Under the pieces are notes generated by a model. It saw nothing but the letters and a program-made list of their open reading frames with translations. It made no database searches and was not told the DNA's origin. Position numbers and translations under genes: made by a program. From a bacterium A37T11 (GTDB taxonomy: Bacteria; Bacteroidota; Bacteroidia; Sphingobacteriales; Sphingobacteriaceae): 64,000 nucleotides of DNA. The stretch covers positions 1-64,000 of the forward strand of contig FOBR01000027.1 in NCBI GenBank assembly GCA_900109895.1, given 5' to 3'. Of the stretch, positions 1-14,358 are shown piece after piece (the first letter of the stretch is position 1; each line of letters opens with the position of its first letter).

Positions 1-440
1 CCATCCAAAATCCAGACTTCGTGTGGCTCAATCGAGTGTGGGAAAAGGGAATGGAGCAACTTATCATCAGTGATGATGGGAATGCTTAATCCAGCTAACC
101 CCTTTCCAAATTTACCCCCAAACCAGTCATCCACTGCCTGCTTGAATTCATAGGTAACCCAATAAAATTGAAAATGCGCTTTGAATTTATCCTGCAAGGC
201 GATCATTTCGGGTAGCTTTTCGATACATCCTGGACAATGGGTAAACCCAAAGTCCAGAATGACGAGCTTATCGCCAAAGTTTCTGAGGCTGACGTTCTCC
301 TTGTCGATGCTTTTATCCCGATATTGAATCACATTTTTAATGGCTAGATCAGGAACGGAATCTCCAACTTGAAGAATTTTTTGAGCAAAAGTTTTAACGA
401 ATCCCGATAGGATGGCGATAATTAATAGCGCTATTTTCAT
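1..440 (-). CDS. TlpA-like thioredoxin-fold protein, 3' end cut by window edge
   Basis: The frame is open from an ATG at 440 to base 1 (146 codons), so the C-terminus lies outside the window. Residues 1-19 form a short signal peptide ending in Phe-Ala-Gln, which predicts export to the periplasm. A thioredoxin-fold core follows, with the redox motif Cys69-Pro-Gly-Cys72 in a FTHCPGC context, and the visible part ends in a VWILDG strand typical of the TlpA/AhpC-TSA family. It lies 18 bp after the SusD gene on the same strand and probably belongs to the same operon. Thioredoxins of this type are frequent partners of SusC/SusD loci in Sphingobacteriales; the redox substrate is unknown. The family call is firm, the role is inference. 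Confidence 0.85.
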   Translation of the reverse strand, partial: MKIALLIIAILSGFVKTFAQKILQVGDSVPDLAIKNVIQYRDKSIDKENVSLRNFGDKLVILDFGFTHCPGCIEKLPEMIALQDKFKAHFQFYWVTYEFKQAVDDWFGGKFGKGLAGLSIPIITDDKLLHSLFPHSIEPHEVWILD

Positions 441-458
441 ATGAGAAAATAATTGTCA

Positions 459-1814
459 TTAACGAGCGTTCTGTTGAGCCCCGCTAAGAGTTACAGCACT
501 TTCCGGGATCAGTAATGCATACCTTAAATCATTAGGTGGCAATTCTGAAATAGTTCCGTCTATCGAACGTTTTATAGTAATCGCAAATGCTGGCTCTAAA
601 TTCAACCGCCGGAGATCCCACCAGCGACGATTCCCTCTAAATGCCAATTCTTTTCTGCGTTCATGAAGTATAGTCGTAAGGGCTTCCACCTGTTCAATAA
701 AATTGTACGGCTGAAAGCTACCAGACTTATATCGCTTTACTAATAAACCATTTAATATACTACTAGCTTCTTTAAGATCATTTAATCGTGCCGCACATTC
801 TGCTTTTATAAGGTACATTTCATCCACGGATATTCCACTAAATAGGGTTTGAGAGGTATTTCCATCATATTGACCTTTAAAATAATGAGTACCGTCGACA
901 TTTGCTTGATAAAAAATATTTTTTCGCAGATCATTCTGTTGATACGATAAGTATAACAATGAATCAACTCTACACCCGGTAGTGCTGAATACAGTAGTAT
1001 ATGTGAGACGGGACTGATAAAGCATTTCAATATTTCCATTTGTGATGGGTGTACGGGAATTGCTATCTAACGTATTAAAATCCAGTAAGGTGTTTTCTAT
1101 TTTCAGACTAGAATCAGCGTACGATTCAGCCAATTTCCACTCTTGCATTTGCAAATATACACAAGCAAGAGCGGCATAAGCTGCCGCCTTACTAGGCCTA
1201 GTGGCAGGACTGTTTATGGCTGGAAGATATTGACAAGCTGCTTTTAAATCGTTCGCAATCCAGTCATAGGTATTTTTTAATGTCGACCGTACAGTTGGAT
1301 CGTTAATGTCAGATGTTTTCTTAAAGGGCATCCCTAAAGATTCATCATTCTTTCCATTTTCAAAGGGTACAGTATATATTTGTGCTGCTGAAAACAACGA
1401 CCATCCTCTTACAAAATATGCTGCCCCTTTAATCGAACTATAGCTTGATTCTCTATTGCTTTCTGACACCCTATCTATATTATCCAACACTGTATTAGCC
1501 ATATATATCTTTGTATAGTTATTCTGCCAATCGGCATCAAACCTTACACCAGGATTCCAATTATATACGCCTTGAAATAAAGTAGATATATTGGGTAAAA
1601 AAGAGGCATTAATATAATAATCGTCACATCCGACATCTCCGGCGATTGGGTCTTGCCTATTTATAGTTTGATCGTTATCAAGCAATGCTTGTAGATCATT
1701 TAAACTTTCTGGAATTACTAAAGACTTATCTGGCTTGGCATCCAGATATTTTTTGCAAGAAGAAGCGAAGATCGATAATGCTAATATCAGTAGGGATAAA
1801 TATGTATTTTTCAT
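459..1814 (-). CDS. SusD/RagB family nutrient-binding outer-membrane lipoprotein
   Basis: A 451-residue protein with a lipoprotein signal peptide whose lipobox ends at Cys20 (ASSC), then the SusD-typical start KKYLDAKPD. The middle holds the alpha-helical TPR-like scaffold (for example residues around AAAYAALACVYLQMQEW). The C-terminus carries the RagB/SusD signatures RRKELAFRGNRRWWDLRR and a late IPESA...QN motif. SusD proteins sit on the cell surface as the lid of the SusC channel and bind the glycan or peptide ligand. The gene follows susC by 38 bp and precedes a thioredoxin gene. At 451 residues it is at the short end for the family. No glycoside hydrolase is visible nearby, so the ligand cannot be inferred. 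Confidence 0.95.
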   Translation of the reverse strand: MKNTYLSLLILALSIFASSCKKYLDAKPDKSLVIPESLNDLQALLDNDQTINRQDPIAGDVGCDDYYINASFLPNISTLFQGVYNWNPGVRFDADWQNNYTKIYMANTVLDNIDRVSESNRESSYSSIKGAAYFVRGWSLFSAAQIYTVPFENGKNDESLGMPFKKTSDINDPTVRSTLKNTYDWIANDLKAACQYLPAINSPATRPSKAAAYAALACVYLQMQEWKLAESYADSSLKIENTLLDFNTLDSNSRTPITNGNIEMLYQSRLTYTTVFSTTGCRVDSLLYLSYQQNDLRKNIFYQANVDGTHYFKGQYDGNTSQTLFSGISVDEMYLIKAECAARLNDLKEASSILNGLLVKRYKSGSFQPYNFIEQVEALTTILHERRKELAFRGNRRWWDLRRLNLEPAFAITIKRSIDGTISELPPNDLRYALLIPESAVTLSGAQQNAR

Positions 1815-1852
1815 GCTATTTTTCTAATTTCTATAGTTTATAACTGAGAGCT

Positions 1853-4800
1853 TCATAAATTTGCTCTAATTCCAAATCCAATGGATCGTGGAATTCGAAT
1901 ACCATTGGCTGTGTCCGGATCAATTCCTTCTTTATTTGCTTTCCAAATGATACCAATGTTATTAATATAAGAATAGATCTGTAATCCGGACAGGTAAATT
2001 GATTTTGCGAATCGATCTTTTAAGTGATACGATAGGTTACAATCCTGTATCCTTATATTATCTCCCTTAATGATATTTGTGGATGAATAGGCATAAAACT
2101 GATCTCTATAATTGTCTGCCGGAAATACCATTGAAGGCACATTTGTGTGTTTTTCATCTCCGGGTGCCTGCCAACGCTTTTCATAATCAGAATGTTCCAT
2201 TGCGCCATTAAATAGGGCTGTGTAATTTATGGATGGTTTTCTGAGCACATAATCAAAGTGATAGGCAATGTTAACTGATAATTCAATTGACTTATAGGTA
2301 AATGTATTCAACCAGGAACCATTGTAAAGTGGCAAGGAAGATCCAGCATTAACAATATCTTGCCATTGACCCTGATTGATAATGGTTGAATAATCTTTAC
2401 TTACCTTCCCATCCACATATCCTTGCGGGTCGCCATTCATGGGATCCAGCCCCGCCCATTTATAAGCGAAGATGCTATAAAAATTTGAGCCTTCGATGGG
2501 TGAAGTGGAACCTCCACCGACATAAGCTGATGGGAAACTTTGCTTAAGGTAATATCTGGACACCACCGTTTTATCATACGAAAAATTGAGGGAAGATAAC
2601 CAGTTGAATGCCCGATTAATAATGCTTGCAGCCAAATTAACATCAAGCCCCCTTCCTCTTAATGATGCGGCATTCTTTGTCAACGTAGGTGAACCGGTAG
2701 CTGTAATATCAGCCGGAACTCCTGATATTAAATCCGTAGAATTTTTAAAGTAATATTCGATGTAACCTGATATAATTTGATTCTTTAATGCGAAATCCAA
2801 TCCAATATTATGCATCGCCACTTGTTCCCATCTCAACGAAGGATTTGCATAACTTCCTATTGTTGCATAAGGAAGGTTTGTTATTCGTCCTGAACCCACA
2901 GTTCTAAATATCAATGTAGGTAATGCCGTTAATTGATTATTCACATTCCCACTTCTGCCATACGTATATCGTAATTTAAGAGACGGTAAAAATGAGCTGC
3001 TGTAGAACTTTTCATTAGACAAATTCCATGCTCCTCCCATTGACCAAAGAGGTACCCCTTTTTGATTGGTCTTAACCCCAAATAAATTCGACTGGTCTCT
3101 ACGAACACTACCAGATACCGTATATTTATCACTAAAGTAATAAGATGCATTGGCATACATGGACACAAAACGATTGAGCAATTGCGTAAGCTGAACGGGA
3201 TTAGGAATAATATCAGTATATTGCAGATTATCATAGGTCTGATAATAATTTAAAAAATCCACGTTTTTAGCAAACGTAAGTGTATTGTCGTCATAGCCAT
3301 ACAGCCGATCACTTTGGTAATTAGTTTGACTTTGCTTTAACTCAAAACCTGCAATAGCTGCTATTTTATCCTGCTTAAAACTTTGTGAATAATTAAGCTG
3401 AACTCTTCCTGAATGAGAATTAATTGTACCCTGAGAACGATCTAATATACCTCCCATGGGAACAGAATAATTAATAGACGTTGCACCAATTGCTGTAAAT
3501 AGATTGATTAAATTTCGCGTAAAATAGCTATCTAAATTGTGATTTTCCCTGCCTGTAGATATAGATGACTCATATTGATAACGGCCTTCAATATTTAAAA
3601 AAGAAGTGATCTTATAGGTAGCGGCTAAATTAGCCAACCAATCATTATTTTTACTCTTGTTGTCGTTATTGGCCAATTCATTAAGGGGGCTATAGTTCCA
3701 GTCCAGTAGTCTGCCAGCTCCGGCAGTGTCCGTAAACGCCTTGGAATAATCCTGTGGAATATATGAATTATTTCCATCAGCATCTTTCAGTTGGGCATAC
3801 GGATAGAGATCTGTCCTGCTATAATTTCTAGTCTGCACCAACGAACCACCAAGTGAGTTATTTTGAGCCTTACTATTGGTATATTGTAATGCCAGGCTAA
3901 TATCCAATTTATCCGTAGTCTTGTAATTGGTTTGATTTTTAAAGGTAAACCTTTGCGTTTGATTGCCCACCAGGCTTGCCAAGCTTTTATCGTACCCAGC
4001 GGATACGTAATAATTAACGGCCTTGTCTCCGCCCGAAAGATTAAGGGCATATTGTTGGTCCACATTTGTTCGGTAGAGGTATTTCAGATAGTCATTCCGT
4101 ACATCAAGGTTCCGCAACTGATTGATCTGCGACTCGGCATCTGCTTCGGTGATCAATTTTTTCCTTTCATCCTGAAGGATAAGCGCTACTGGAGATACGA
4201 TTGGGTAGTTAAAGGTGTTTGACAATGCACCATCAAAAGCGCCATTTTTAAATAAGAATTCTTCTACATCAATATAATCAGAGGTAGACATTTGTTTGGC
4301 AGCAAGCAGATCGGGTTTTTCCTTAAGATTAACGGATGAACTTGCCGAGATCTTCGATTTCTCCTGATACTGACCTTTCTTGCTGGTAATGACAATGACT
4401 CCATTGCCGGCACGTGCTCCCCAAATCGAAGTGGGCGCCCCGTCTTTTAAAATCGTAATTGACTGAATATCATTAGGATTTATATTTTCTATGTCTCCGT
4501 CATAAGGAAAATTATCCAGGATAATGAGTGGTTTGGCTATTTCGGATGATAAAGTGCTAATACCTCTTATCGTAAAGTTTTCTACACTTGAATTTTTTAT
4601 ATCAAAATAAACCCCCGGCGTCAGATTTTCAATGCGGCTGATGATGTCGCTGCTGATCTTCCGTTCGATTAATTTTTGGCCGACTTTGTCGAAGGCGGCA
4701 GTCCCGCGTTCCTTGGACAACACTTGGTATCCATTGCTCACCACATCCACCTCATCCAACGATGCCTCTGCGCGTTGCAGTATAATGGTAGTGAGGTGAT

Positions 4801-5410
4801 CGGATATAGGTACTTCACGCGTGGCGAAACCGAGATAGGAAATTTGCAGGGTGGCGTTGTCTTCGACGCCTCTTAAGATGAATTCCCCATTTTTGTTGGT
4901 GAACGTGGCGCGCGAGGTGCCTTTAACGCGGATGGTAGCGTTTTCTAAGGGTGTGCCGATGGAGTCGGTGACGCGGCCGGTGATGGTTTTCCCGTCCTGC
5001 GACGGGACTCCTCGTTCCTCGTCGGTTGCCCTACCACCAACTATAAAAAAATCTTTTACCTTGTCCACCATTCCTTTCTCCTTCTCTTTAATCAGAATAG
5101 TTTGTTTTTCGATCGTAAAGGTAAAGGGTTGTCCTTCCACGCATTTTTCCAACACTTCCGTTAGCCCGGCATGCACAAAATTGGCATTGACCTGGCGCAG
5201 GTCGTCTAATTTTTTGGCGGAGTAGAATACTGAGTAATCGGTTTGTTCTTTGATCGCTAAAAAGATATCTTTAAGTGTTGCGCTTTTCTTTTTGATGGTA
5301 ATATAAGGCTGCGCCAGCGTCGCTGCGCTGACCTGCATAATGGCAACTAATACAATAACGGATGTAATATTAACCCGCATAAGCACTCCTTTCGTAAATT
5401 TTATATACAT
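1853..5410 (-). CDS. SusC/RagA family TonB-dependent transporter with STN signalling domain
   Basis: The 1185-residue outer-membrane transporter has a signal peptide ending at TLAQ (residue 34), an STN domain at about 43-110, a carboxypeptidase-regulatory-like domain at about 143-212 (ITGRVTDSIGTPLENATI), a TonB plug at about 240-350 (LIILDNFPYDGDIENINPNDI, then ILKDGAPTSIWGARAGNGVI) and a C-terminal beta-barrel. The STN domain normally contacts a FecR-type anti-sigma factor, and such a gene lies just upstream, so this receptor probably both imports and signals. Two starts are possible: ATG at 5410, which gives the long N-region common in STN-type SusC proteins, and ATG at 5380, which has AAGGAG five bases upstream. 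I keep 5410. The 199-bp leader up to fecR holds strong hairpins and a possible antisense RNA. Confidence 0.95.
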   Translation of the reverse strand: MYIKFTKGVLMRVNITSVIVLVAIMQVSAATLAQPYITIKKKSATLKDIFLAIKEQTDYSVFYSAKKLDDLRQVNANFVHAGLTEVLEKCVEGQPFTFTIEKQTILIKEKEKGMVDKVKDFFIVGGRATDEERGVPSQDGKTITGRVTDSIGTPLENATIRVKGTSRATFTNKNGEFILRGVEDNATLQISYLGFATREVPISDHLTTIILQRAEASLDEVDVVSNGYQVLSKERGTAAFDKVGQKLIERKISSDIISRIENLTPGVYFDIKNSSVENFTIRGISTLSSEIAKPLIILDNFPYDGDIENINPNDIQSITILKDGAPTSIWGARAGNGVIVITSKKGQYQEKSKISASSSVNLKEKPDLLAAKQMSTSDYIDVEEFLFKNGAFDGALSNTFNYPIVSPVALILQDERKKLITEADAESQINQLRNLDVRNDYLKYLYRTNVDQQYALNLSGGDKAVNYYVSAGYDKSLASLVGNQTQRFTFKNQTNYKTTDKLDISLALQYTNSKAQNNSLGGSLVQTRNYSRTDLYPYAQLKDADGNNSYIPQDYSKAFTDTAGAGRLLDWNYSPLNELANNDNKSKNNDWLANLAATYKITSFLNIEGRYQYESSISTGRENHNLDSYFTRNLINLFTAIGATSINYSVPMGGILDRSQGTINSHSGRVQLNYSQSFKQDKIAAIAGFELKQSQTNYQSDRLYGYDDNTLTFAKNVDFLNYYQTYDNLQYTDIIPNPVQLTQLLNRFVSMYANASYYFSDKYTVSGSVRRDQSNLFGVKTNQKGVPLWSMGGAWNLSNEKFYSSSFLPSLKLRYTYGRSGNVNNQLTALPTLIFRTVGSGRITNLPYATIGSYANPSLRWEQVAMHNIGLDFALKNQIISGYIEYYFKNSTDLISGVPADITATGSPTLTKNAASLRGRGLDVNLAASIINRAFNWLSSLNFSYDKTVVSRYYLKQSFPSAYVGGGSTSPIEGSNFYSIFAYKWAGLDPMNGDPQGYVDGKVSKDYSTIINQGQWQDIVNAGSSLPLYNGSWLNTFTYKSIELSVNIAYHFDYVLRKPSINYTALFNGAMEHSDYEKRWQAPGDEKHTNVPSMVFPADNYRDQFYAYSSTNIIKGDNIRIQDCNLSYHLKDRFAKSIYLSGLQIYSYINNIGIIWKANKEGIDPDTANGIRIPRSIGFGIRANL

Positions 5411-5413
5411 TTG
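5406..5413 (+). promoter_or_regulatory. Possible -7 box for an antisense transcript
   Basis: TACATTTG fits the Bacteroidota -7 consensus TAnnTTTG on the plus strand, opposite the start codon of the susC gene. I see no TTG at the expected -33 spacing. Part of the match comes from the reverse complement of the start codon itself, so it could be chance. It is listed because a plus-strand terminator lies about 100 bases downstream. Confidence 0.3.
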
Positions 5414-5418
5414 GACAC

Positions 5419-5521
5419 ATGTTTAGTGTAATAAATGATTGTTTCCTACAACGTTTTTCCTGAACATTCCTGCCTGGCAGGATATAGCCGGTGGTGTTGG
5501 TCGCACTGCCGGCTTTTTTTT
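5419..5521 (+). ncRNA. Putative cis-antisense small RNA opposite the susC leader
   Basis: No plus-strand gene explains the terminator at 5486-5521, which lies between fecR and susC. A -7-like box at 5406-5413 would start a transcript near 5419, giving an RNA of about 100 nt fully complementary to the susC 5' leader. In Bacteroides, DonS and related cis-antisense RNAs occupy this position between an anti-sigma gene and a susC homologue and repress the locus. Seen: the terminator and the box. Inferred: the transcript, its 5' end and its role. Confidence 0.4.
5486..5521 (+). terminator. Rho-independent terminator without an upstream plus-strand gene
   Basis: An 11-bp stem (AGCCGGTGGTG with CACTGCCGGCT, two G-T wobbles) encloses a 7-base loop and is followed by eight T on the plus strand. 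The minus strand carries the A tract before the hairpin, so the polarity is clearly plus. It lies in the fecR-susC gap. Confidence 0.65.
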
Positions 5522-5555
5522 ATCAGGTGCATTTTCCCTGTTTTCTGTTTTTAGT

Positions 5556-5588
5556 TTACCTCCATTTTTTGGTATGGTTAATATTCAT
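5556..5588 (-). CDS. Ten-codon leader ORF with a strong ribosome binding site
   Basis: It begins 21 bases after the fecR stop codon, has GGGAGG seven bases before its ATG, and encodes MNINHTKKWR followed by TAA. A strong Shine-Dalgarno sequence is unusual here, because most genes in this window have none. It may be a leader peptide or the relic of an older susC 5' end, since SusC N-termini often look similar. Expression is unproven. Confidence 0.25.
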   Translation of the reverse strand: MNINHTKKWR

Positions 5589-5609
5589 TTTCGTACCTCC
5601 CTTATGCTT

Positions 5610-6713
5610 TTATTTCCGGTATACTTTTACATTTCTTCCATTGACCTCAAAGCGGATATCCCCTACTTGCTGCATCATATCCAGCAGGATGGCTACGTTG
5701 TCATACCGGGATAGCGTCCCTGAAAAGGTTTCGGAATCGGGTATCTGTTCTGCATAGGATACTTCAAAATTGTACCACCGGGCCAGTTTGCGTAAAACGG
5801 CTTGTACGGGTTCTTTGGTAAAGACAAACTCGCCGTTCTTCCAGCTGATGGCTTCATCCAGGTCGGCTTGCTGCTTGGTGAGGCCGCCGTTTTCCTGTAG
5901 GGTGGATTGCTCGCCGGGCACCAGTGTGATACTTTTTCCCTGTAAATTAGCTACCAGTACCGATCCGCTGGTGAGCGTGGTTTGAATAGTTTTATTTTCC
6001 GCATAAGCCTCGACATTAAAAGAAGTGCCCAGCACAGAAATTTCCTGGTTTTTACTGATCACATTAAATGGTTTGGACTTGTCTTCTTTAATTTCGAAGT
6101 AGGCTTCGCCTTCTAAAGAAACTGTTCTGGTATCGCCGCTGAAGCGGCTTGGATATGTTATGGTGGATTGGGCGTTGAGCCAAACTTTGGTACCGTCTTC
6201 GAGTATGATTTGGTATTGGCCGCCTTTGGGAGTGGACAATGTTAACATCGTACTATTTACGATTGCTTTTGCTTTGATTGCTGTTCCATCATTATACTTT
6301 ATGTCTTCGTCATTGATTTGGATGCCGGCTTTGGCGCTGTCGAGACTTATTTTACGGCCGTCGGCCAGGGTGAGTACGGCCCTGTTGCTGCCGGGCTGGA
6401 AGCCGGTTTGTTTGGTGTTTTGCTTGTAGTAATAAAATGTGATGCCACAGGCTATTAATAGAATTGCTGCCACTTGTACCCATCGGTTGGTATAGAGGGG
6501 CCGGGGTTTTTTTGATAGGGGCTGGTCTTTTTGGGCGATTATTTTTTTAAATACATCGTGTTTAATCTGGTCATAGTCCCAATCGGCCAGTGCTTCAGCT
6601 TTTTGACGGGCAAAGTAGTCATTATTCCAGGATTCAACGAGCGCGCGTTCTTCGGCCGTGCAGTCTCCTTTGAGGTACCTCCTGACTAATGCTATGACTT
6701 CTTTTCGTTTCAT
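5610..6713 (-). CDS. FecR-family anti-sigma factor
   Basis: A 367-residue single-pass inner-membrane protein. The cytoplasmic N-terminal part (about 1-75) should bind the sigma factor, a membrane helix spans about 78-96 (WVQVAAILLIACGITFYYY), the periplasmic FecR domain covers about 155-260 (LSTPKGGQYQIILEDGTKVW then FNAEAY-like FNVEAYAENK), and a DUF4974-type C-terminal domain ends the protein (about 290-367). It lies 61 bp after the sigma gene and upstream of susC, the standard sigma/anti-sigma/SusC trio in which ligand-bound SusC signals through its STN domain to release the sigma factor. Length and order are normal. Confidence 0.95.
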   Translation of the reverse strand: MKRKEVIALVRRYLKGDCTAEERALVESWNNDYFARQKAEALADWDYDQIKHDVFKKIIAQKDQPLSKKPRPLYTNRWVQVAAILLIACGITFYYYKQNTKQTGFQPGSNRAVLTLADGRKISLDSAKAGIQINDEDIKYNDGTAIKAKAIVNSTMLTLSTPKGGQYQIILEDGTKVWLNAQSTITYPSRFSGDTRTVSLEGEAYFEIKEDKSKPFNVISKNQEISVLGTSFNVEAYAENKTIQTTLTSGSVLVANLQGKSITLVPGEQSTLQENGGLTKQQADLDEAISWKNGEFVFTKEPVQAVLRKLARWYNFEVSYAEQIPDSETFSGTLSRYDNVAILLDMMQQVGDIRFEVNGRNVKVYRK

Positions 6714-6774
6714 TCTATAGGTATAACAAATAAGTCGAGGGTAGGTACTAAAGGTTTTTAAAAAAAATATTTTC

Positions 6775-7323
6775 TCAAAGCCCTAAATGGAGGCGGATGC
6801 GCTTTAGCGCATTCGTGATGTGGTTTTTTACCGTGAAAACTGAAATATTCATTTTTACGGCTATTTCTTTATGGCTGAGCTGTTGGTTCCGGCTTAGTTC
6901 AAATACCTGCCGCATTTTTTCGGGCATGGACCCCACTTCTTCTTCGATCAGTTGGTGAAGCTGGTGGGTTCGGGCCAGTTGATCGGCCTCAGGCACTGCA
7001 TTATCCATATAGGAAGTCAGATCGGTCAAGTGATCTGCCTTTAGTTTGTCTTTGGCGATGACATTTAAGACCTGGTTGCGTACCAGCGTATATAAATAAG
7101 CAGACAACTGGGTATCTGGCGATAATTTGGGCGATTTTTCCCACAATTTTACAAAAGTATTTTGCAGTACATCCCGGCATTCCTCTTCATCATGCAGCAT
7201 TCGTTGCGCATAACGCAGCAACACCCCCCAAAAACGCTCATAAATTTCGGCAAACGCTCGCTCATCGCCCTTTTTTAATAAGGTAAGCAACTGTTGATCT
7301 GCGTACGAGCGATAATCTGCCAC
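6775..7323 (-). CDS. ECF RNA polymerase sigma factor (Bacteroidota SusC/FecR type)
   Basis: The 182-residue protein contains sigma region 2 at about 22-90 (FAEIYERFWGVLLRYAQRML, then DVLQNTFVKLWE) and region 4 at about 122-176 with a helix-turn-helix (LSHKEIAVKMNISVFTVKNHITNALKRIR). It lacks regions 1 and 3, as expected for ECF factors. The start codon is GTG at 7323. It is the first gene of the sigma-fecR-susC-susD-thioredoxin run and should drive the locus when released from the anti-sigma factor. A TAnnTTTG box lies 19 bases upstream of the start. Confidence 0.95.
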   Translation of the reverse strand: MADYRSYADQQLLTLLKKGDERAFAEIYERFWGVLLRYAQRMLHDEEECRDVLQNTFVKLWEKSPKLSPDTQLSAYLYTLVRNQVLNVIAKDKLKADHLTDLTSYMDNAVPEADQLARTHQLHQLIEEEVGSMPEKMRQVFELSRNQQLSHKEIAVKMNISVFTVKNHITNALKRIRLHLGL

Positions 7324-7342
7324 TTGATTTAAGTTTGTTTCA

Positions 7343-7350
7343 CAAATCTA
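7343..7350 (-). promoter_or_regulatory. Possible -7 promoter box of the ECF sigma gene
   Basis: TAGATTTG on the minus strand matches TAnnTTTG and lies 19 bases before the GTG start. No convincing -33 TTG is present. Confidence 0.35.
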
Positions 7351-7493
7351 TTATATATTTTGATTACTTTTTGAAAAAAATGAAAAAAAATTTAGTGATG
7401 AACTTAATTTGGATTTTTTACATATGTTTCGAATTTCCCCCATGTAGCGCTATGGGTATGAATTGCGTTTTAAAGCAAATCAAATTATGTTAT

Positions 7494-8447
7494 ATGAAAT
7501 TTTACAGCATTTATTCTTTATTCATTTTTGCAGTCCTGTTGGGTAGTTGTAGTAAGGATAATTCGACACCTAATAATGGTCCTTTGGCTGCCGGATACTC
7601 CATTCTGGTCAATAACGGTCAAGTGCTTGTGAGCGGTTTTTTAAGTGAAAACGGCCGGGTAACCACCAGATATTGGGTGAATGACAAAAAAGTCGATTCA
7701 ACCGGTTTTACGGGTCTTGTTGGGAACCAATCCATTTTCCGGGTGGCCGTTGACGATCAATTCAGAACTGGGTATACCTATAAAGACAATGCAGGCGTCA
7801 TTCAAAGCTATCGTTTTAACCAGGGAACTGGTGCCGAAAACGGCCACATATTTTATTATCTAAACAATTCGATGGTGCGGATGAATAACGACAGCATCGG
7901 TATTTTGTCTACCGTTTCTTTTCACGATAATACACCCATATTTGCCGGTTCATTGGGTGTACTTATAAATAATGCGATGAACAGATCGATACAACCTAAA
8001 ACCGCCTTTGTGTGGGACGGTCATTCTCCGATCAATGAGTTGGTGCGTCCGGAACAAAGCACGCTGTTTTGGGGGGTTAGCGCTGTTTATGCTGTTGGTA
8101 CCAATGAAGTGTATGTAGGCGGCTTATGCGGCATACCTATGTACTGGAAAAACTCCGATCCAGTTGTGCTGGATAGCCGTTATGGAGAAGTTTGGCAAAT
8201 TACCAAATCAGGCCCGGATGTGTATGCAGTAGGGTTATTGAATAAACACAATTCAAACAGCACAGGGCATACCGCCTGTTACTGGAAGAACGGCACGCTA
8301 TACGAACTTGAGGATAATGCGCAAGCATATGCTATATGTATTGACGGGGAAGATGTCTATATATCCGGGGCTGTTGGGAATGTTCCCGTAAACTACCATC
8401 CATGTTATTGGAAAAATGGCGTAAGGGTTGACCTGCCGATGATTTAA
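7494..8447 (+). CDS. Lipoprotein with predicted beta-propeller-like repeats, function unknown
   Basis: From ATG 7494 the 317-residue product has a clean lipoprotein signal with Cys19 (LLGSC) followed by SKDNS; the frame stays open upstream but that extension would bury the signal peptide. The body contains recurring short motifs of the type W-x-N and YWKNG (around TRYWVNDKK, MYWKNSD, CYWKNGTLYEL, CYWKNGVRVDL) alternating with EVYVGG, DVYAVG and DVYISG strands, about 50 residues apart. This periodicity suggests beta-propeller blades. It is divergent from the sigma factor gene. I do not recognise a named function; a surface or periplasmic binding role would be a guess. Confidence 0.8.
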   Translation: MKFYSIYSLFIFAVLLGSCSKDNSTPNNGPLAAGYSILVNNGQVLVSGFLSENGRVTTRYWVNDKKVDSTGFTGLVGNQSIFRVAVDDQFRTGYTYKDNAGVIQSYRFNQGTGAENGHIFYYLNNSMVRMNNDSIGILSTVSFHDNTPIFAGSLGVLINNAMNRSIQPKTAFVWDGHSPINELVRPEQSTLFWGVSAVYAVGTNEVYVGGLCGIPMYWKNSDPVVLDSRYGEVWQITKSGPDVYAVGLLNKHNSNSTGHTACYWKNGTLYELEDNAQAYAICIDGEDVYISGAVGNVPVNYHPCYWKNGVRVDLPMI

Positions 8448-8486
8448 AGATATAACTTTTGTTCTATTGCGGCCTGGCAAGGGACC

Positions 8487-8526
8487 TGATAATTTTACAG
8501 CATTATTAAACTTTGTAAAATTATCA
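8487..8526. promoter_or_regulatory. 13-bp perfect inverted repeat next to a start codon
   Basis: TGATAATTTTACA (8487-8499) and TGTAAAATTATCA (8514-8526) are perfect reverse complements separated by 14 bases. The right arm ends two bases before the ATG at 8529. In RNA it would fold over the ribosome binding region; in DNA it could be an operator. There is no T tract, so it is not a terminator. Confidence 0.5.
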
Positions 8527-8528
8527 TC

Positions 8529-9149
8529 ATGAGAACTATTAATTTACTTTATTTAATGTTGTTCCTGCCAGTTTTTGCCCTGGCACAAACTGAACGAAAG
8601 GGTACCTATGGAAGTATTTCTGCGGCCTACGGCACTTATTCCATTGATTTGTATGCGTATGCTGGCGGAAGTGACCTTTATAACGACCAGGATTTTTCAG
8701 GGCCTGTGTTTTCCCTGGGCATTGAAACAAAATCTGCCTGGCAGAAAAACAAATTTGTGTTTGACGTGGGCGGCGAGTTATCTGCCGGATTGGGGATTAA
8801 AAAAACCAGCGTGTCCAGTGGCAACTACCACACGAGTAACAGCGGTGGGCATTTGTATGGAATAAACGCCTTGCTAAAAGCGGGGTATCTGGTTGCTGAA
8901 AGTGGCAAGGTAGTTCCTTTATTCGGTCTAGGCCCATACTATGACTTCATTACCCAAGGCGGTGATAGTGATGATAATTCTATATACGGCTTGCAAGGTT
9001 TTGTGGGGGTTGATCTTTCTGTCTCCAAGTTTGTGATTACCCCACAGCTGAATTTTGGTCTGGCCAGCTGGGGAGGTTCTGAAAGTATGGACCAAAATGG
9101 CCAGCCATCCAAATTTGAGGGGGGCGTAAAGTTTGCTTATAAATTTTAA
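8529..9149 (+). CDS. Outer-membrane beta-barrel protein, PorT-like
   Basis: A 206-residue protein with a signal peptide ending ALAQ (about residue 20). The rest alternates amphipathic strands with Gly/Ser/Asn-rich turns (for example FVFDVGGELSAGLGI, VVPLFGLGPYYDF, FVITPQLNFGLAS) and ends in an aromatic residue (KFAYKF), all typical of a small eight-stranded outer-membrane barrel. No specific family motif beyond this is visible, and the substrate or role is unknown. The start codon is overlapped by the stem of a 13-bp inverted repeat, which suggests post-transcriptional or operator control. A terminator follows at 9201. Confidence 0.8.
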   Translation: MRTINLLYLMLFLPVFALAQTERKGTYGSISAAYGTYSIDLYAYAGGSDLYNDQDFSGPVFSLGIETKSAWQKNKFVFDVGGELSAGLGIKKTSVSSGNYHTSNSGGHLYGINALLKAGYLVAESGKVVPLFGLGPYYDFITQGGDSDDNSIYGLQGFVGVDLSVSKFVITPQLNFGLASWGGSESMDQNGQPSKFEGGVKFAYKF

Positions 9150-9200
9150 GGGGATTATAGGTTTTTTGTTTGTTTAGTATTTTTTGTTCTAAGTGAAAAA

Positions 9201-9226
9201 GCCCCAGCTTACGCTGAGGCTTTTTT
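9201..9226 (+). terminator. Rho-independent terminator, probably bidirectional
   Basis: GCCCCAGC and GCTGAGGC pair with one mismatch around a TTAC loop, followed by six T. A run of A precedes the stem, so it can also serve the tRNA gene transcribed from the other strand. Confidence 0.75.
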
Positions 9227-9227
9227 G

Positions 9228-9300
9228 TGATCCCGCTGGGATTCGAACCCAGGACCCATACATTAAAAGTGTATTGCTCTACCAGCTGAGCTACGGAATC
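9228..9300 (-). tRNA. tRNA-Lys (anticodon TTT)
   Basis: The minus-strand sequence folds into a full cloverleaf. The acceptor stem GATTCCG pairs with CGGGATC (one G-T pair) and is followed by discriminator A. The D stem is GCTC/GAGC, the anticodon stem ATACA/TGTAT encloses the loop CTTTTAA, and the T stem CTGGG/CCCAG encloses TTCGAAT. The anticodon TTT reads lysine codons. CCA is not encoded. Confidence 0.97.
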
Positions 9301-9338
9301 ATTTTATTAGAACAACTTCCCTTTTTTTGAAAGTGGTG

Positions 9339-9369
9339 CAAAGATAGAATTATCAGGCTATACGTGCAA
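9339..9369 (-). promoter_or_regulatory. Promoter of tRNA-Lys
   Basis: On the minus strand TTG (9369-9367) is followed by a 20-base spacer and TATCTTTG (9346-9339), a full match to the Bacteroidota -33/-7 pattern. Transcription would begin about 33 bases before the tRNA. Confidence 0.6.
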
Positions 9370-9414
9370 GGAATAATTTAAAATATATGCAAATTATTTA
9401 TATTTTATTCATAA

Positions 9415-10287
9415 TTAAGTATTTATTCCTTTTACAATTCGTTCTGCCCCTTGCATATCGGTGTAAACACTAACCTCACTGAAACCCATACTACGAAATA
9501 GTGAGGCCGTTTCCTGCCCAAACCGACGATTAATTTCTACGTAGATACGCCCTCCCGGCTTTAGCTGCTGCCGTGAATAGTGTGCTATTTGACGATAGAA
9601 CAAAAGCGGGTCATTTTCCGGTACAAACAGCGCCAGGGATGGCTCCTGTTCTTTGACGTGCGCTTCCATGCCCAATTGTTCAGATGGGGTAATATAGGGA
9701 GGGTTGCTCACAATGACATCAAACAGTGGCATGGTGGATGGAAGGCTATTCGGGTCCAGAATATCGGCCTGCAAAAATTGAACAGCGGCCGAAAGGTTTT
9801 GAGCATTTTGCCTTGCTACCTCCAAAGCCGTTGTTGAAATATCCAAGGCATATACGACAGACCCTGGCAATTGTTTTTGGAGGGCGATGGCTATGCAACC
9901 GCTGCCTGTGCCAATGTCCAGGATGTGCAGGTCCTGAGCATTGGCGCGATAATCCTGTATGATTTGATCGGTCAATTCTTCAGTTTCTGGCCGTGGTATA
10001 AGCACGGCTTTATTTACCTGAAACAAGTGCCCCATAAACCAGGCATTTCCCAATATATACTGCACGGGTATGCCTTTTTTTAGTTCGGTAAGTACTTCAT
10101 TTAAACGATGTATAATGTAATCTGTTAATGGTTTATCTTTTTTACTTAAATAATCACTTTCATCATTCCCCATCAAATCTGATAGAATATGGCGCACGAG
10201 GCTGCGAGCTTCAGCAGGGTCATAATTGTCTTTAAGCTGCTCCGTATATAGGCTTTCGAAATGTCGGATACTTTGGTTCATTTGCAT
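9415..10287 (-). CDS. prmC: Peptide chain release factor N5-glutamine methyltransferase
   Basis: PrmC (HemK) methylates the glutamine of the GGQ motif in release factors, using S-adenosylmethionine. The 290-residue product has the N-terminal helical domain (1-75), the conserved PVQYILG and IPRPETEELTD stretches, SAM motif I DIGTGSG at 124-130, and the catalytic NPPY at 195-198. The frame can start at 10305, but that ATG lies inside a TAnnTTTG promoter box, so ATG 10287 (or 10281) is the likely start. It is head to head with ribD. Confidence 0.93.
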   Translation of the reverse strand: MQMNQSIRHFESLYTEQLKDNYDPAEARSLVRHILSDLMGNDESDYLSKKDKPLTDYIIHRLNEVLTELKKGIPVQYILGNAWFMGHLFQVNKAVLIPRPETEELTDQIIQDYRANAQDLHILDIGTGSGCIAIALQKQLPGSVVYALDISTTALEVARQNAQNLSAAVQFLQADILDPNSLPSTMPLFDVIVSNPPYITPSEQLGMEAHVKEQEPSLALFVPENDPLLFYRQIAHYSRQQLKPGGRIYVEINRRFGQETASLFRSMGFSEVSVYTDMQGAERIVKGINT

Positions 10288-10298
10288 AAGAATATTGG

Positions 10299-10306
10299 CA
10301 AACATA
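10299..10306 (-). promoter_or_regulatory. -7 promoter box of prmC, overlapping an upstream ATG
   Basis: TATGTTTG on the minus strand matches TAnnTTTG and contains the ATG at 10305, so that codon is probably not transcribed in full. The next in-frame ATG lies 11 bases downstream. Confidence 0.45.
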
Positions 10307-10330
10307 CAATAACGTTATCAAAGTAAAAAT

Positions 10331-10338
10331 TATCTTTG
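10331..10338 (+). promoter_or_regulatory. -7 promoter box of ribD, leaderless arrangement
   Basis: TATCTTTG fully matches TAnnTTTG and is followed by exactly six bases and then the ATG at 10345. Transcription would start at or next to the start codon. The in-frame TTG at 10336 is part of the box and is rejected as a start. Confidence 0.5.
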
Positions 10339-10344
10339 TGCACA

Positions 10345-11394
10345 ATGGATGGACATGAAATCTATATGCGGCGTTGCCTGGATCTGGCCGCGTTGGGTAC
10401 TGGCTTGGTAAGCCCCAATCCGATGGTGGGTGCGGTTGTGGTGTATAATAACCGGATTATAGGTGAGGGATGGCACCAGGCTTTTGGCGGTCCGCATGCT
10501 GAGGTACATGCCATAAATGAGGTTATGGATAAGTTTAGCAACTATGCTGAAATATTCAAAAATTCAACACTTTATGTAAATCTTGAACCATGCGCTCATT
10601 ATGGCAAAACCCCTCCTTGTGCCCGGCTTATTGCTGAACATCAACTAAAGCGGGTGGTTATTGGCTGCCGGGATCCTTTTGATGCTGTAAATGGAAAAGG
10701 CATTGCTTTGTTGCAGGATGCACGTGTAGAGGTGATAGAAGGGGTATTGCAAAAGGAGTCTGAATTCCTGAACCGGCGGTTTATAACCCGCGTGCGACAG
10801 CACAGGCCTTATGTTATTTTGAAATGGGCACAGACCGCTGATGGTTATTTTGCCCCGGATGATGGCAGCCAGCAATGGATCAGCAGCCCTCAGGCACAAC
10901 AGATGGTGCATCGCTGGCGTAGTGAAGAAGATGCCGTTTTGGTAGGTAAAAACACGGCTTTGATAGATAATCCCCGTCTTAATGTTCGTGCATGGAATGG
11001 ACGCAACCCGTTGCGCATTGTCATTGACAAAAACCTGGAGGTTCCGTCAACCCATCATCTTTTGGATGGGTCCATCCATACATTGGTTTTTAATGCCTTG
11101 AAAAGCGATTGGAGCGAAAACCTCAAATACATTTCCCTTGAAAATTTTGACTTATATCTTCCACAACAAATCCTTTATCAACTTTATTTAATGGATGTAC
11201 AATCGGTCATTGTGGAAGGCGGGTTGCACACGCTGAAGGCTTTTACAGATGCGGGATTATGGGATGAGGCCCGCATTTTTAAAGCTCCTTTGACCTGGGG
11301 AAAGGGCAAATTAGCTATTAACTTAAAAGAAAGTAATTCTGTAAATCAGAAAGTTGGTATAGATAACCTAACTATTTACTATAAGTCAAAATGA
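10345..11394 (+). CDS. ribD: Bifunctional riboflavin biosynthesis deaminase/reductase RibD
   Basis: RibD carries out two steps of riboflavin synthesis: deamination of the pyrimidine from GTP, then NADPH-dependent reduction of the ribose side chain. The 349-residue protein has the N-terminal zinc deaminase domain with His51-Ala-Glu53, Cys83 (EPCAHYGKTPPC) and Cys92 as zinc and catalytic residues, and a C-terminal RibD reductase domain from about 145 (RPYVILKWAQTADGYFAPDDGSQ cut here for length, and IVEGG near 290). It starts an operon in which the next two genes overlap by ATGA. No FMN riboswitch is present upstream; the promoter appears to leave no leader. Confidence 0.95.
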   Translation: MDGHEIYMRRCLDLAALGTGLVSPNPMVGAVVVYNNRIIGEGWHQAFGGPHAEVHAINEVMDKFSNYAEIFKNSTLYVNLEPCAHYGKTPPCARLIAEHQLKRVVIGCRDPFDAVNGKGIALLQDARVEVIEGVLQKESEFLNRRFITRVRQHRPYVILKWAQTADGYFAPDDGSQQWISSPQAQQMVHRWRSEEDAVLVGKNTALIDNPRLNVRAWNGRNPLRIVIDKNLEVPSTHHLLDGSIHTLVFNALKSDWSENLKYISLENFDLYLPQQILYQLYLMDVQSVIVEGGLHTLKAFTDAGLWDEARIFKAPLTWGKGKLAINLKESNSVNQKVGIDNLTIYYKSK

Positions 11395-12263
11395 TCTACG
11401 TTCTTTTAAGTGTTTTGTGCAGTGTTTCGGTATCGGTGGTTATTAAATTGGCCCGGAGATACTCGGTAGATGTACAACAAATGATTATTTGGAATTATCC
11501 GGCCGCGGTGTTGTTGACCGGTTATTTTTTGCATCCGGATCCCGGCAGCGTTTCCTGGAACCTGGCCCCTACCTTAATTTACCTGGCCTTGGCAGTATTG
11601 CTTCCGGGTATCTTTGTGGCGACTGCGCAATCCATCCGCTATACGGGGATGGTACGCACGGAGGTGGCCCAACGGTTATCGTTATTCCTGCCGCTCATCG
11701 CCGCCTTTACCATTTTTCAGGAGAAGCCGGAGCCACTTAAAATTTTGGGGATTGTGGTGGGTATTGCGGCGATTGTTTGCTCAATTAATTGGAAAGGGGG
11801 TAAAAGCTGGCGTACGGGCAGCAAAAATAGTTGGTTGTACCCACTGATTGTATTTGCTGGAATGGGCCTCATTGACGTGCTTTTTAAACAAATTGCGTTG
11901 AACAAGGCGGTGCCTTATACCACTTCCATGTTCTTGGTGTTTTTTTTGGCTATGCTGGCAGCCGGTGGATATTTGGCTTATCTGTTATTAGTAAAGAAGA
12001 GACGTTTCTCGGTTTCAGGGATGTGCGGAGGCTTAATTCTTGGCGCTTTTAATTTTTGCAACATTCTATTTTATATGAAAGCCCACAGGGCCATTGCTGG
12101 TAATCCATCCCTTGTTTTTTCGGGAGTTAACATTGGCGTAATCGTTTTTGGTACGTTGGTTGGCGTGTTCATTTTCCGTGAAAAATTAAGCTTGCTAAAT
12201 AAGATTGGCTTGGTACTGGCCGTTGTTTCTGTGCTGATTATTTATTTTTTACGGATTGGATGA
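11391..12263 (+). CDS. EamA/DMT-family membrane transporter
   Basis: A 290-residue integral membrane protein with about ten hydrophobic helices in two similar halves, the pattern of the drug/metabolite transporter superfamily. Features include an N-terminal half ending in FLPLIAAFTIFQEKPEPLKILG and a C-terminal half ending in FGTLVGVFIFREKLSLLNKIG, the duplicated EamA signature. The ATG overlaps the ribD stop codon (ATGA), and its own stop overlaps the next start, so the three genes are translationally coupled. The neighbour ribD raises the possibility of flavin or purine-related transport, but nothing in the sequence proves a substrate. Confidence 0.88.
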   Translation: MIYVLLSVLCSVSVSVVIKLARRYSVDVQQMIIWNYPAAVLLTGYFLHPDPGSVSWNLAPTLIYLALAVLLPGIFVATAQSIRYTGMVRTEVAQRLSLFLPLIAAFTIFQEKPEPLKILGIVVGIAAIVCSINWKGGKSWRTGSKNSWLYPLIVFAGMGLIDVLFKQIALNKAVPYTTSMFLVFFLAMLAAGGYLAYLLLVKKRRFSVSGMCGGLILGAFNFCNILFYMKAHRAIAGNPSLVFSGVNIGVIVFGTLVGVFIFREKLSLLNKIGLVLAVVSVLIIYFLRIG

Positions 12264-12877
12264 GCTTATTTGAGGATACATACCTAACGATTGAACAGGA
12301 GGCGGAAGGTCAATTTAAGGATAAGGGCAGTAAATTTATAGCTTATGCATCCCCAATTAATCACGAGGGGCAGGCCAAAGAGTTCTTAAATCGGATAAAA
12401 GCAGCGCACCCAAAGGCAAGGCACCATTGCTGGGCGTTGCGATTGACTCCTGACCGAAGTATTTTTAGGATCAACGACGATGGCGAACCTTCCGGCACGG
12501 CCGGTCGCCCCATTTTGAATGCCTTGCTTTCTGCCGATCTGACAAATATTATGGTGGTGGTGGTACGATATTTCGGCGGCACGTTATTGGGTGTGCCAGG
12601 TTTGATCAATGCCTACAAAACAGCTGCCAAAGCGGCATTGGAAGCGGCAACGGTGGTTAGCCGGGCGCTAACTGATTTTTACAGGGTTGAATTTGCATAC
12701 GATAGAATGAACGATGTGATGCGCTTGGTGAAAGAGGAAGATTTAGTGACCGAAAAACAAAGTTTTGAAAGCCAATGTAGCCTGGAATTAGGCATCCGGA
12801 AGTCAAAATTGAATGTAATATTGGGAAAACTGGATAAAATGGAGGGGGTTAATGTGGTATTTATAGCTAGCAGGTGA
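12260..12877 (+). CDS. YigZ/IMPACT family protein
   Basis: The 205-residue protein has the UPF0029/IMPACT N-terminal domain, with the family signature RINDDGEPSGTAGRPIL at about 73-90 and VVVRYFGGTLLGVPGL at about 99-114, plus a short C-terminal DUF1949-type domain. Family members are conserved but poorly defined; the eukaryotic relative IMPACT modulates GCN2 signalling and bacterial YigZ has been linked to translation or peptide metabolism without a settled activity. Its start codon overlaps the stop of the transporter gene. Confidence 0.92.
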   Translation: MSLFEDTYLTIEQEAEGQFKDKGSKFIAYASPINHEGQAKEFLNRIKAAHPKARHHCWALRLTPDRSIFRINDDGEPSGTAGRPILNALLSADLTNIMVVVVRYFGGTLLGVPGLINAYKTAAKAALEAATVVSRALTDFYRVEFAYDRMNDVMRLVKEEDLVTEKQSFESQCSLELGIRKSKLNVILGKLDKMEGVNVVFIASR

Positions 12878-12946
12878 AATAGTCTTTAACATAATTTTAA
12901 CACACAAGCTATTAAACCATTTGATCCGCAAACACTCTATTCTTCC

Positions 12947-12970
12947 AAACAACCATATATGGGTTGTTTT
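12947..12970 (+). terminator. Possible terminator of the ribD operon
   Basis: AAACAACC and GGTTGTTT form a perfect 8-bp stem around a 7-base loop, followed by only a short T run (TTTTATA). It lies 70 bases after yigZ and 19 before the next gene, so it could equally be a leader hairpin. Confidence 0.4.
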
Positions 12971-12987
12971 ATAAAAAGAGTAGAGAA

Positions 12988-13452
12988 ATGAAAAAGATGT
13001 TATTATCAGTTGCGTTGATCATTGGAATGGGCGCAGCAGGGTTTGCACAAGAAGCAGACAAAAAAGAACATGGGCATAAGCCAAAAAGCCCGGAAGAAAT
13101 GGCTCAGGCCCAAACAAACAAATTAGCCGAGAAGCTTTCTTTAAATGATGACCAGAAAAAGAAGGTGTATGCCCTCAAACTTGAGCGTAGCAAAAAGTTT
13201 GCGAACGAAATGAAGGGAAAACACGAAGAAATGATGGGGAAACGGGATGAAATGCTAAAGGACCAACAGGCTGAGGATGAAAAATTGGAACAAATTTTAA
13301 CTCCGGCCCAAAAGGAAAGTTACGAGAAGCTGAAAGCTGACCGGAAAGAAAAAATTCATTCCATGCAAGGAAAGGGAAAGCGAATGGGGAAACGCCCTGG
13401 CAGAATGTATGACCTCCCGGGCAAAAGGGACAGTTCAAAAGTGATAAACTAA
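12988..13452 (+). CDS. Spy/LTXXQ-like periplasmic helical protein
   Basis: The start at ATG 12988 gives a 154-residue product with a signal peptide (MKKMLLSVALIIGMGAAGFAQ). The mature part is highly charged, rich in Lys, Glu and Met, and contains two LTXXQ-like segments, LSLNDDQKKKVYAL and LTPAQKESYEKL. This is the pattern of the Spy/CpxP/DUF4890 group of periplasmic helical proteins, whose best known member is a chaperone. The His-rich segment KKEHGHK near the N-terminus could bind metal. A terminator follows directly. The family is reasonably clear; the client or signal is unknown. Confidence 0.85.
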   Translation: MKKMLLSVALIIGMGAAGFAQEADKKEHGHKPKSPEEMAQAQTNKLAEKLSLNDDQKKKVYALKLERSKKFANEMKGKHEEMMGKRDEMLKDQQAEDEKLEQILTPAQKESYEKLKADRKEKIHSMQGKGKRMGKRPGRMYDLPGKRDSSKVIN

Positions 13453-13457
13453 ACCGA

Positions 13458-13484
13458 GGCCAGCAAAATGCTGGCCTTTTTTTT
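13458..13484 (+). terminator. Rho-independent terminator
   Basis: A perfect 7-bp stem GGCCAGC/GCTGGCC with a 5-base loop is followed by eight T, six bases after the stop codon of the Spy-like gene. Confidence 0.9.
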
Positions 13485-13491
13485 ATCTTTG
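13484..13491 (+). promoter_or_regulatory. -7 promoter box of the hydroxyacyl-CoA dehydrogenase gene
   Basis: TATCTTTG matches TAnnTTTG and begins in the T tract of the preceding terminator. It implies a start near 13497 and supports ATG 13513 over the in-frame upstream codon at 13468. Confidence 0.45.
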
Positions 13492-13512
13492 CCCTACCAA
13501 TTTAAGACAATT

Positions 13513-14358
13513 ATGCATCATATTTCTGTGATAGGTTCTGGCACGATGGGCAATGGTATTGCGCATACCTTTGCTTTATTTGGCTTTGAGGTGGCGTTGG
13601 TAGATATTTCGCAAGCCGCTCTTGACAGGGCGATTTTAACCATCGAATCCAATTTGGAAAGGCAGGTTAATAAGGGTGCGATTGATAGTGCCGCTAAAAT
13701 ATCGGCTTTGAGACGCCTCCATCCGTATAATCATTTGAAAGATGGCGTTGCTGATGCAGATTTAGTAGTGGAAGCGGCAACTGAAAATGAAAAAATAAAA
13801 CTGGATCTCTTTACCTCCTTGGATGGGTTTTGTAAACCGAAAGCTATTTTGGCATCCAACACCTCTTCCATATCCATTACGAAGATTGCCTCGGTTACCA
13901 GCCGGCCTGAACAGGTAATTGGTATGCACTTTATGAACCCGGTACCGCTTATGAAATTGGTTGAAGTGATAAGAGGCTATTCCACCAGCGACGTGGTGAC
14001 AAAAAAAGTACTGGATGTGGCTATATTGCTTGAAAAAACGCCGGTGGAGGTGAATGACTATCCAGGTTTTGTGGCTAATCGCATTTTAATGCCAATGATC
14101 AATGAGGCCATTTATACGTTATTTGAAGGGGTAGCCACCGCAGAAGCCATTGATGCCGTGATGAAATTGGGTATGGCTCACCCCATGGGGCCGTTGCAAT
14201 TGGCCGATTTTATAGGTTTGGATGTTTGCTTGTCCATTATGCGTGTATTGCACGAAGGTTTCGGCCATTCAAAGTATGCGCCTTGCCCATTGTTGGTCAA
14301 TATGGTGCAGGCCGGTAAACTTGGAAAAAAAACCAAGTCCGGTTTTTTTACTTATTGA
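13513..14358 (+). CDS. 3-hydroxybutyryl-CoA/3-hydroxyacyl-CoA dehydrogenase
   Basis: A 281-residue NAD-dependent enzyme that oxidises 3-hydroxyacyl-CoA to the 3-keto form, or runs in reverse in butyrate-type pathways. The Rossmann motif GSGTMGNGIA lies at residues 8-17. The central domain has the NTSS motif (ASNTSSISI), the catalytic-His segment IGMHFMNPVPLMKLVEV, and the C-terminal helical domain has the conserved DYPGFVANRILMPMINEA and KKTKSGFF end. The length is that of the single-function dehydrogenase, not the multifunctional FadB. It stands alone between two terminators, so its pathway partner is elsewhere. Confidence 0.93.
   Translation: MHHISVIGSGTMGNGIAHTFALFGFEVALVDISQAALDRAILTIESNLERQVNKGAIDSAAKISALRRLHPYNHLKDGVADADLVVEAATENEKIKLDLFTSLDGFCKPKAILASNTSSISITKIASVTSRPEQVIGMHFMNPVPLMKLVEVIRGYSTSDVVTKKVLDVAILLEKTPVEVNDYPGFVANRILMPMINEAIYTLFEGVATAEAIDAVMKLGMAHPMGPLQLADFIGLDVCLSIMRVLHEGFGHSKYAPCPLLVNMVQAGKLGKKTKSGFFTY

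Follow-up and report, generated by a model that had tools for sequence, protein, structure and literature searches.

The window, that is, the whole analysed stretch of 64,000 nucleotides, carries near its beginning a susC homologue followed by a susD homologue, with a fecR anti-sigma gene and an ECF sigma factor gene upstream. The gap between fecR and susC is 199 bases in length and has minus-strand genes on both sides, while the features predicted within it lie on the plus strand. The features are as follows.

459-1814, minus strand: susD homologue, after susC (SusD-like_3 and SusD_RagB)
1853-5410, minus strand: susC homologue, first ATG at 5410-5408 and alternative ATG at 5380 (CarbopepD_reg_2 and Plug; STN under the cut-off)
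5406-5413, plus strand: promoter box TACATTTG, matching the Bacteroidota -7 box TAnnTTTG and overlapping the first susC ATG
5418-5521, plus strand: predicted antisense small RNA of about 104 nt, its 5′ end placed 4-5 nt past the box and its 3′ end placed in the T tract
5419-5426, plus strand: putative closing stem, 5′ arm, 8 pairs with 5460-5467 in the minimum free energy fold alone
5460-5467, plus strand: putative closing stem, 3′ arm, in the minimum free energy fold
5468-5482, plus strand: extra hairpin between the closing stem and the terminator, absent from the family consensus
5486-5514, plus strand: terminator stem-loop, 12 pairs including an outer A-T (11 without it), loop of 5
5514-5521, plus strand: T8 tract, whose first T pairs with A 5486
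5610-6713, minus strand: fecR anti-sigma gene (PF04773 and PF16344)
6775-7323, minus strand: ECF sigma factor gene, upstream of fecR (Sigma70_r2 and Sigma70_r4_2)

The first ATG of the SusC frame lies 10 codons ahead of a second one, which stands immediately before the signal peptide (MYIKFTKGVLMRVN...; window 5380-5410). Many paralogues also have an N-terminal extension before the signal-peptide ATG, and it is longer in several of them. Since the upstream ATG overlaps the promoter box, the susC start codon and the antisense promoter may constrain each other. Beyond the sigma factor gene, the plus-strand frames at 7335-8447 and 8529-9149 have no Pfam match at E 0.001. Farther away, a 10-pair terminator with a T tract at 13456-13478, between the plus-strand frames 12964-13452 and 13468-14358, is apparently an ordinary sense-strand terminator.

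The initial annotation had noticed, between the two minus-strand genes, an 11-bp stem with eight T on the plus strand and a TAnnTTTG box upstream of it. Both are readily seen in the sequence, and the stem gains a twelfth pair when the outer A-T is counted. Among 32 terminator-like sites in window 1-14000, this terminator ranks first both in its number of pairs and in its number of G-C pairs, and the strand-neutral hairpin finder described below counted two G-U and no A-C wobbles in its stem. For the plus strand of 5406-5521, the folding energy is -39.2 kcal/mol (z -4.86), and none of 200 shuffled sequences folded equally well; the fold of the gap's minus strand is less striking (z -2.07). The predicted RNA would lie wholly inside the gap, with its 5′ end about 8 nt upstream of the first susC ATG. 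This agrees with the size of about 100 nt that was proposed for the putative transcript; whether it would be fully antisense to the susC leader depends on where susC transcription starts.

Is such a terminator common in the fecR-susC gaps of this genome? The assembly (5.09 Mb, 97.5% complete) yielded 91 FecR_C matches, 11 of which were dropped as frames of 442-1250 aa adjoining a listed FecR. A SusC-like frame comes next in all the 80 FecR loci kept. With about 80 such anti-sigma genes in its 5.1 Mb, the genome has one roughly every 64 kb. Each gap was taken to reach from the stop codon of fecR to the first start codon of susC, and a single rule was applied to both strands; intrinsic terminators antisense to fecR and susC were found in 46 of the 80 gaps, and sense-strand terminators in none. 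For gaps of 60-260 nt, an antisense terminator is present in 43 of 68 fecR-susC gaps versus 3 of 36 gaps between other co-directional frames (Fisher p 3e-8), the latter being drawn from the remainder of the window and from ten stretches of 20 kb. These control gaps have a sense terminator in five cases, and two of their three antisense cases carry a sense one too. Twenty dinucleotide-shuffled sets of 78 gaps (two loci with long gaps being omitted) gave 0 to 4 antisense terminators, compared with 45 in the real ones. A terminator arising by chance is thus ruled out by the polarity, the shuffles, and the control gaps. The covariance model R2 described below (E 0.05) added 13 loci, so that the RNA was found in 59 of the 80 FecR loci; among the 21 other gaps, 11 are 75 nt or less and 10 are longer. 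Separately, it was found that an inverted repeat, AGACGT...GCGTCT (or GGCGTC), lies on the sense strand upstream of the terminator's A tract in eight loci (L047, L053, L056, L060, L067, L068, L070, and L081). It is perhaps an operator or a part of a promoter.

The wobble pairs indicate from which strand the hairpins would be copied. A hairpin finder that gives G-U and A-C the same treatment, and is therefore neutral as to strand, detected 59 hairpins. In the antisense reading, the 44 hairpins with a T tail (at least five T in the next eight antisense-strand bases) have 57 G-U versus 2 A-C wobbles, and all 59 hairpins together have 78 versus 15. Such a G-U bias would benefit an RNA copied from the antisense side and would be of no use to a sense-side RNA. 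The box points to the same strand. TAnnTTTG is the housekeeping box consensus according to a passage of PMC7366714, and it was found 43-115 nt ahead of the hairpin in 33 of the 46 loci, versus a mean of 4.5 and a maximum of 13 in 200 shuffles and none on the other strand. The box is not a mere echo of the susC start codon, because the ATG-to-box register varies among loci (offsets -3, -2, and +2) and no ATG is near the box in four of them. No clear -33 element was seen in the antisense promoter regions. A motif search for a sense-strand susC promoter across the gaps recovered for the most part the stems of the RNA itself and the start region. A small protein was also considered and rejected, as 25 of the 46 RNAs have no closed ATG frame and the longest frame has 19 codons.

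In addition to the terminator hairpin, a second pairing was revealed, which links the 5′ end of the RNA, just past the box, with the base of the terminator. The optimal pairing in 25 of 41 loci is between letters 2-7 nt past the box and a 3′ partner that stops 3-7 nt short of the terminator; GGATAG pairing with CTATCC and GGGTT pairing with GGCCC are examples. The two arms pair better within a locus than between loci (mean score 17.3 versus 12.4), and none of 20000 permutations reached this difference. This test used 41 of the 46 loci, the five others having no box, and TAnnTTTA was accepted where TAnnTTTG was missing. Allowing G-U pairs gave the closing stem a higher score than allowing A-C pairs in 33 of the 41 loci and a lower score in 2. 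A plain DNA search with the gap gave short matches in only 2 of 59 other genomes, so a covariance model was used. In a MAFFT alignment (A1), the variants of the hairpin were shifted by one base, so a smaller seed (A2) replaced it, and a first model, R1, was built from 10 loci. With an E limit of 1, R1 matched 51 times across 90 sources; one of these matches is in a control stretch (L091, E 0.38), and five are partial and fall on the other strand, inside the hairpin, which is nearly palindromic. The locus search with R2 covered 60 FecR loci of the genome (the window being L028) and 29 loci of relatives; the other 20 FecR loci of the genome were covered by R1 and by the whole-genome searches. 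Searched against the whole genome, R2 had 42 matches at E up to 1, and each of them closely follows a different FecR gene, on the strand opposite to it.

In an alignment of 36 rows, changes on both sides were found in 18 of the 22 pairs (shuffle mean 11.0), and the covariation score was 0.534 versus 0.222 for shuffled and at most 0.114 for slid alignments. With 82 rows, the score was 0.626 versus 0.247 shuffled and at most 0.111 slid; two-sided changes were then found in all 22 pairs, a count that says little alone because the shuffle mean was 17.9. When only 29 loci from 29 other genomes were used, 20 of the 22 pairs had two-sided changes, with a score of 0.554 versus 0.244 shuffled and at most 0.127 slid. 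These pair counts and scores come from model-fitted alignments, which favour the structure, and the permutation test is free of that bias. Searched against Rfam at the gathering score, the whole window gave one tRNA only, and the permissive matches in the gap had E values of 0.99 and 1.9.

How well does the window copy itself fit the family? R2, which was trained without the window, matches 5409-5522 with 33.1 bits (E 0.012 in the whole-genome search). In the pairing test, the closing stem of the window scored 11.5, which is under the cross-locus mean of 12.4. A further model, R3, forces another register of the closing stem here, leaving several pairs unformed, and does not align the pairing of 5419-5426 with 5460-5467. 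The extra hairpin at 5468-5482 sits roughly where R3 expects the 3′ arm. Because of the R3 mismatch and the low pairing score, I claim for this copy the box, the terminator, and membership in the family by place and model score, but not the stem. Its box and terminator are strong and typical of the family; its closing stem is weakly supported.

The RNA family is not confined to one genome. In the taxonomic family of the window's genome, 34 of 61 genomes match at E 0.01, including the genome itself. One locus was inspected in each of 29 other genomes of that family, and in all the 29 loci the RNA lies between fecR and susC in antisense orientation. Matches were also obtained in 81 of the 101 genomes of a second sample, all of the same taxonomic family. 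Another 39 loci were inspected, including five of the window's own genome, one repeat of a place (L138), and some from three other families of the class; both genes lie on the opposite strand in 38 of them, and only susC in one (L145). A scan of the phylum gave matches in at least 18 of 395 genomes, including the window's own and eight of its family, a floor since nine candidates were scored per genome. A search with the N-terminus of susC found six related loci, which were used to reach four named genomes, Parabacteroides massiliensis, Carboxylicivirga linearis, Labilibacter sediminis, and Galbibacter pacificus. These four gave 15 matches at E up to 1; 11 lie beside both genes, 2 beside only susC, and 2 beside neither (E 0.32 and 0.50). 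The members in these genomes belong to the orders Bacteroidales, Marinilabiliales, and Flavobacteriales. In P. massiliensis, of the order Bacteroidales, all seven R3 matches are antisense in a fecR-susC gap.

In the scans made without any model, in the two genomes below and in the class sample, the gene after fecR was counted as susC by its position, with no domain test. P. massiliensis has 48 FecR_C matches, some of them in SusC frames, and 23 loci were scanned; 8 of these gaps have an antisense terminator, all with the box, and none has a sense terminator. The closing stem of P. massiliensis is weakly supported (229 of 20000 permutations, 10 loci). In G. pacificus, 4 of 7 gaps have an antisense terminator and none a sense one. 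The initial annotation had proposed that related gaps be compared for conserved terminator polarity and compensatory changes. The polarity in these two genomes is the same as in the window's genome (46 of 80 gaps against none), and the stems have compensatory changes. The named genomes also bear out the occurrence of such an RNA outside Bacteroides, which had been thought worth noting.

In a 38-genome sample of the class, R3 at E 0.01 had no matches in the nine other FecR-bearing genomes, and a 54-nt match in a genome without FecR_C (G551) is probably due to chance. A de novo scan of seven of these nine genomes, which left out G046 and G557 as well as two FecR loci of G554 and one locus that ended before the next gene (L241), found antisense terminators in two genomes. 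One (G167) has them in 5 of 6 gaps and the other (G382) in 4 of 15, one of the four also having a sense terminator; the five remaining genomes, with mostly tight gaps, have them in 0 of 14. Thus, the RNA family is not universal.

The initial annotation had compared the element to DonS. DonS RNAs are marked by the housekeeping -7 box TAnnTTTG and an intrinsic terminator, and their loci carry ECF sigma and anti-sigma genes. Such antisense RNAs of Bacteroides PULs were reportedly described by Cao et al. in 2016 (J Bacteriol 198:2410). According to passages of later papers, the DonS-type RNAs are 78-128 nt in length, divergently encoded, and antisense to susC homologues, with several per genome and ten DonS-like RNAs annotated in B. 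thetaiotaomicron (PMC7366714). DonS-like RNAs that PMC7366714 names in that species include BTnc009, BTnc055, BTnc077, BTnc249, and BTnc123. The same kind of passages state that DonS represses its locus in B. fragilis by a mechanism that is not known (PMC7366714, PMC11697453, PMC10994844). The comparison was apt in place, size, box, and terminator. The RNA is antisense to the 5′ region of susC in the window and in the 42 genome matches, SusC-like frames follow fecR in all 80 loci, the length of about 104 nt predicted from the box and the T tract falls within the DonS range, the box and the intrinsic terminator are both present, and the sigma factor and fecR genes lie upstream of susC. There are also differences. 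The window's genome carries the RNA in 59 of 80 FecR loci. The window family differs from DonS, as far as DonS is known here from those passages, by its covarying closing stem and by its range across Bacteroidales, Marinilabiliales, and Flavobacteriales. It also matches no Rfam family. Given that the seven R3 matches in P. massiliensis all stand in the same context, common descent with DonS is plausible.

The multicopy paralogous RNAs FopS and GibS are also alike, in that they have a sigma-ABfr promoter and FopS acts at susC start regions, according to a passage of PMC11697453. In the same passage, FopS gives bands of about 65 and 70 nt and acts in trans with RbpB, whereas the copies of the window family are antisense to their own susC. 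FopS blocks the start of susC translation near position -6 in B. thetaiotaomicron (PMC11697453, in part). An RRM protein partner such as RbpB was not found here; neither RRM_1 nor Hfq proteins were detected in the 97.5% complete genome, with no RRM_1 matches, while the control for the RRM_1 search was positive in Bacteroides ihuae. Thus, the RbpB link of Bacteroides is not transferable, and the RNA, if it works, does so without both proteins. In a member of Flavobacteriaceae, Flavobacterium psychrophilum, antisense RNAs have been mapped as well, and the text sections of PMC9723704 considered here tie none of them to fecR-susC gaps. At the level of titles and abstract openings, the literature on point consists of the Bacteroides work and one flavobacterial transcriptome. 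The kind of RNA is known from Bacteroides; what is new here is the wider range and the covarying architecture.

On what would such an RNA act? Like the multicopy FopS, the paralogues (the GGATAG subfamily) might act in trans, their targets being the susC leaders of sister loci or other mRNAs. The 5′ sequence common to 16 selected and aligned paralogues would suit this, and FopS RNAs are described as binding susC start regions in trans (a passage of PMC11697453). Yet the most conserved letters are those of the closing stem, the loop that would be free to pair varies more between loci, and a trans regulator would not need to lie antisense beside its own FecR in 42 of 42 model matches; I regard this as unlikely. 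The element might also be a mere terminator that halts stray antisense transcription from susC before it reaches fecR and the sigma factor gene, with the RNA as a by-product. Its polarity would fit, and many antisense RNAs of B. thetaiotaomicron may be spurious (PMC7366714, in part), but neither a box at a preferred distance nor a covarying closing stem is needed for that, and this is improbable too. That the element serves the fecR-susC mRNA, as a structured leader or a processing stem, is very improbable and is rejected on wobble polarity, for although the position is that of a would-be leader or intercistronic region and the sense strand folds partially (z -2.07), the hairpin wobbles are polarised 57 to 2 to the antisense strand, the closing stem prefers G-U in 33 of 41 loci against 2, and the T tract and the box are both on the antisense strand.

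A discrete, putative antisense RNA gene at 5406-5521 is well supported by the polarity, the box, the wobbles, the covarying stem, and the genomic context. I consider it quite probable that it is a cis-antisense gene for an RNA of about 104 nt, with a dedicated copy in most fecR-susC gaps, which represses its own susC-susD operon. The housekeeping sigma factor would transcribe the RNA from the TAnnTTTG box overlapping the susC start, and transcription would run against susC toward fecR and stop at the intrinsic terminator. Under uninduced conditions, the RNA may pair with the leader of susC immediately before the start codon, or the antisense transcription may oppose transcription into susC, or both. 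Once FecR releases the ECF sigma factor, transcription of susC would override the RNA. Cis repression of its own operon while FecR holds the ECF sigma factor is suggested by the repression by DonS and by the action of FopS at the susC start. From the sequence, I infer the transcription of the RNA, its ends, its pairing with the leader, and the repression of susC.

More broadly, I lean towards an old and undescribed family of Bacteroidota, with one structured cis-antisense RNA per ECF sigma/FecR/SusC locus and a promoter over the susC start codon that would give each uptake operon its own brake; DonS would be its Bacteroides branch, and here it would work without Hfq or an RRM protein. The covariance model's inspected matches lie almost all in one genomic context, so the family can be searched for now in existing Bacteroidota RNA-seq data. 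SusC/D loci under an ECF sigma factor and FecR are a main means of food choice in Bacteroidota. The RNA family is probably a widespread brake on nutrient uptake. If most such loci carry a private antisense RNA, an RNA-level brake would be a general layer of control rather than a peculiarity of Bacteroides.
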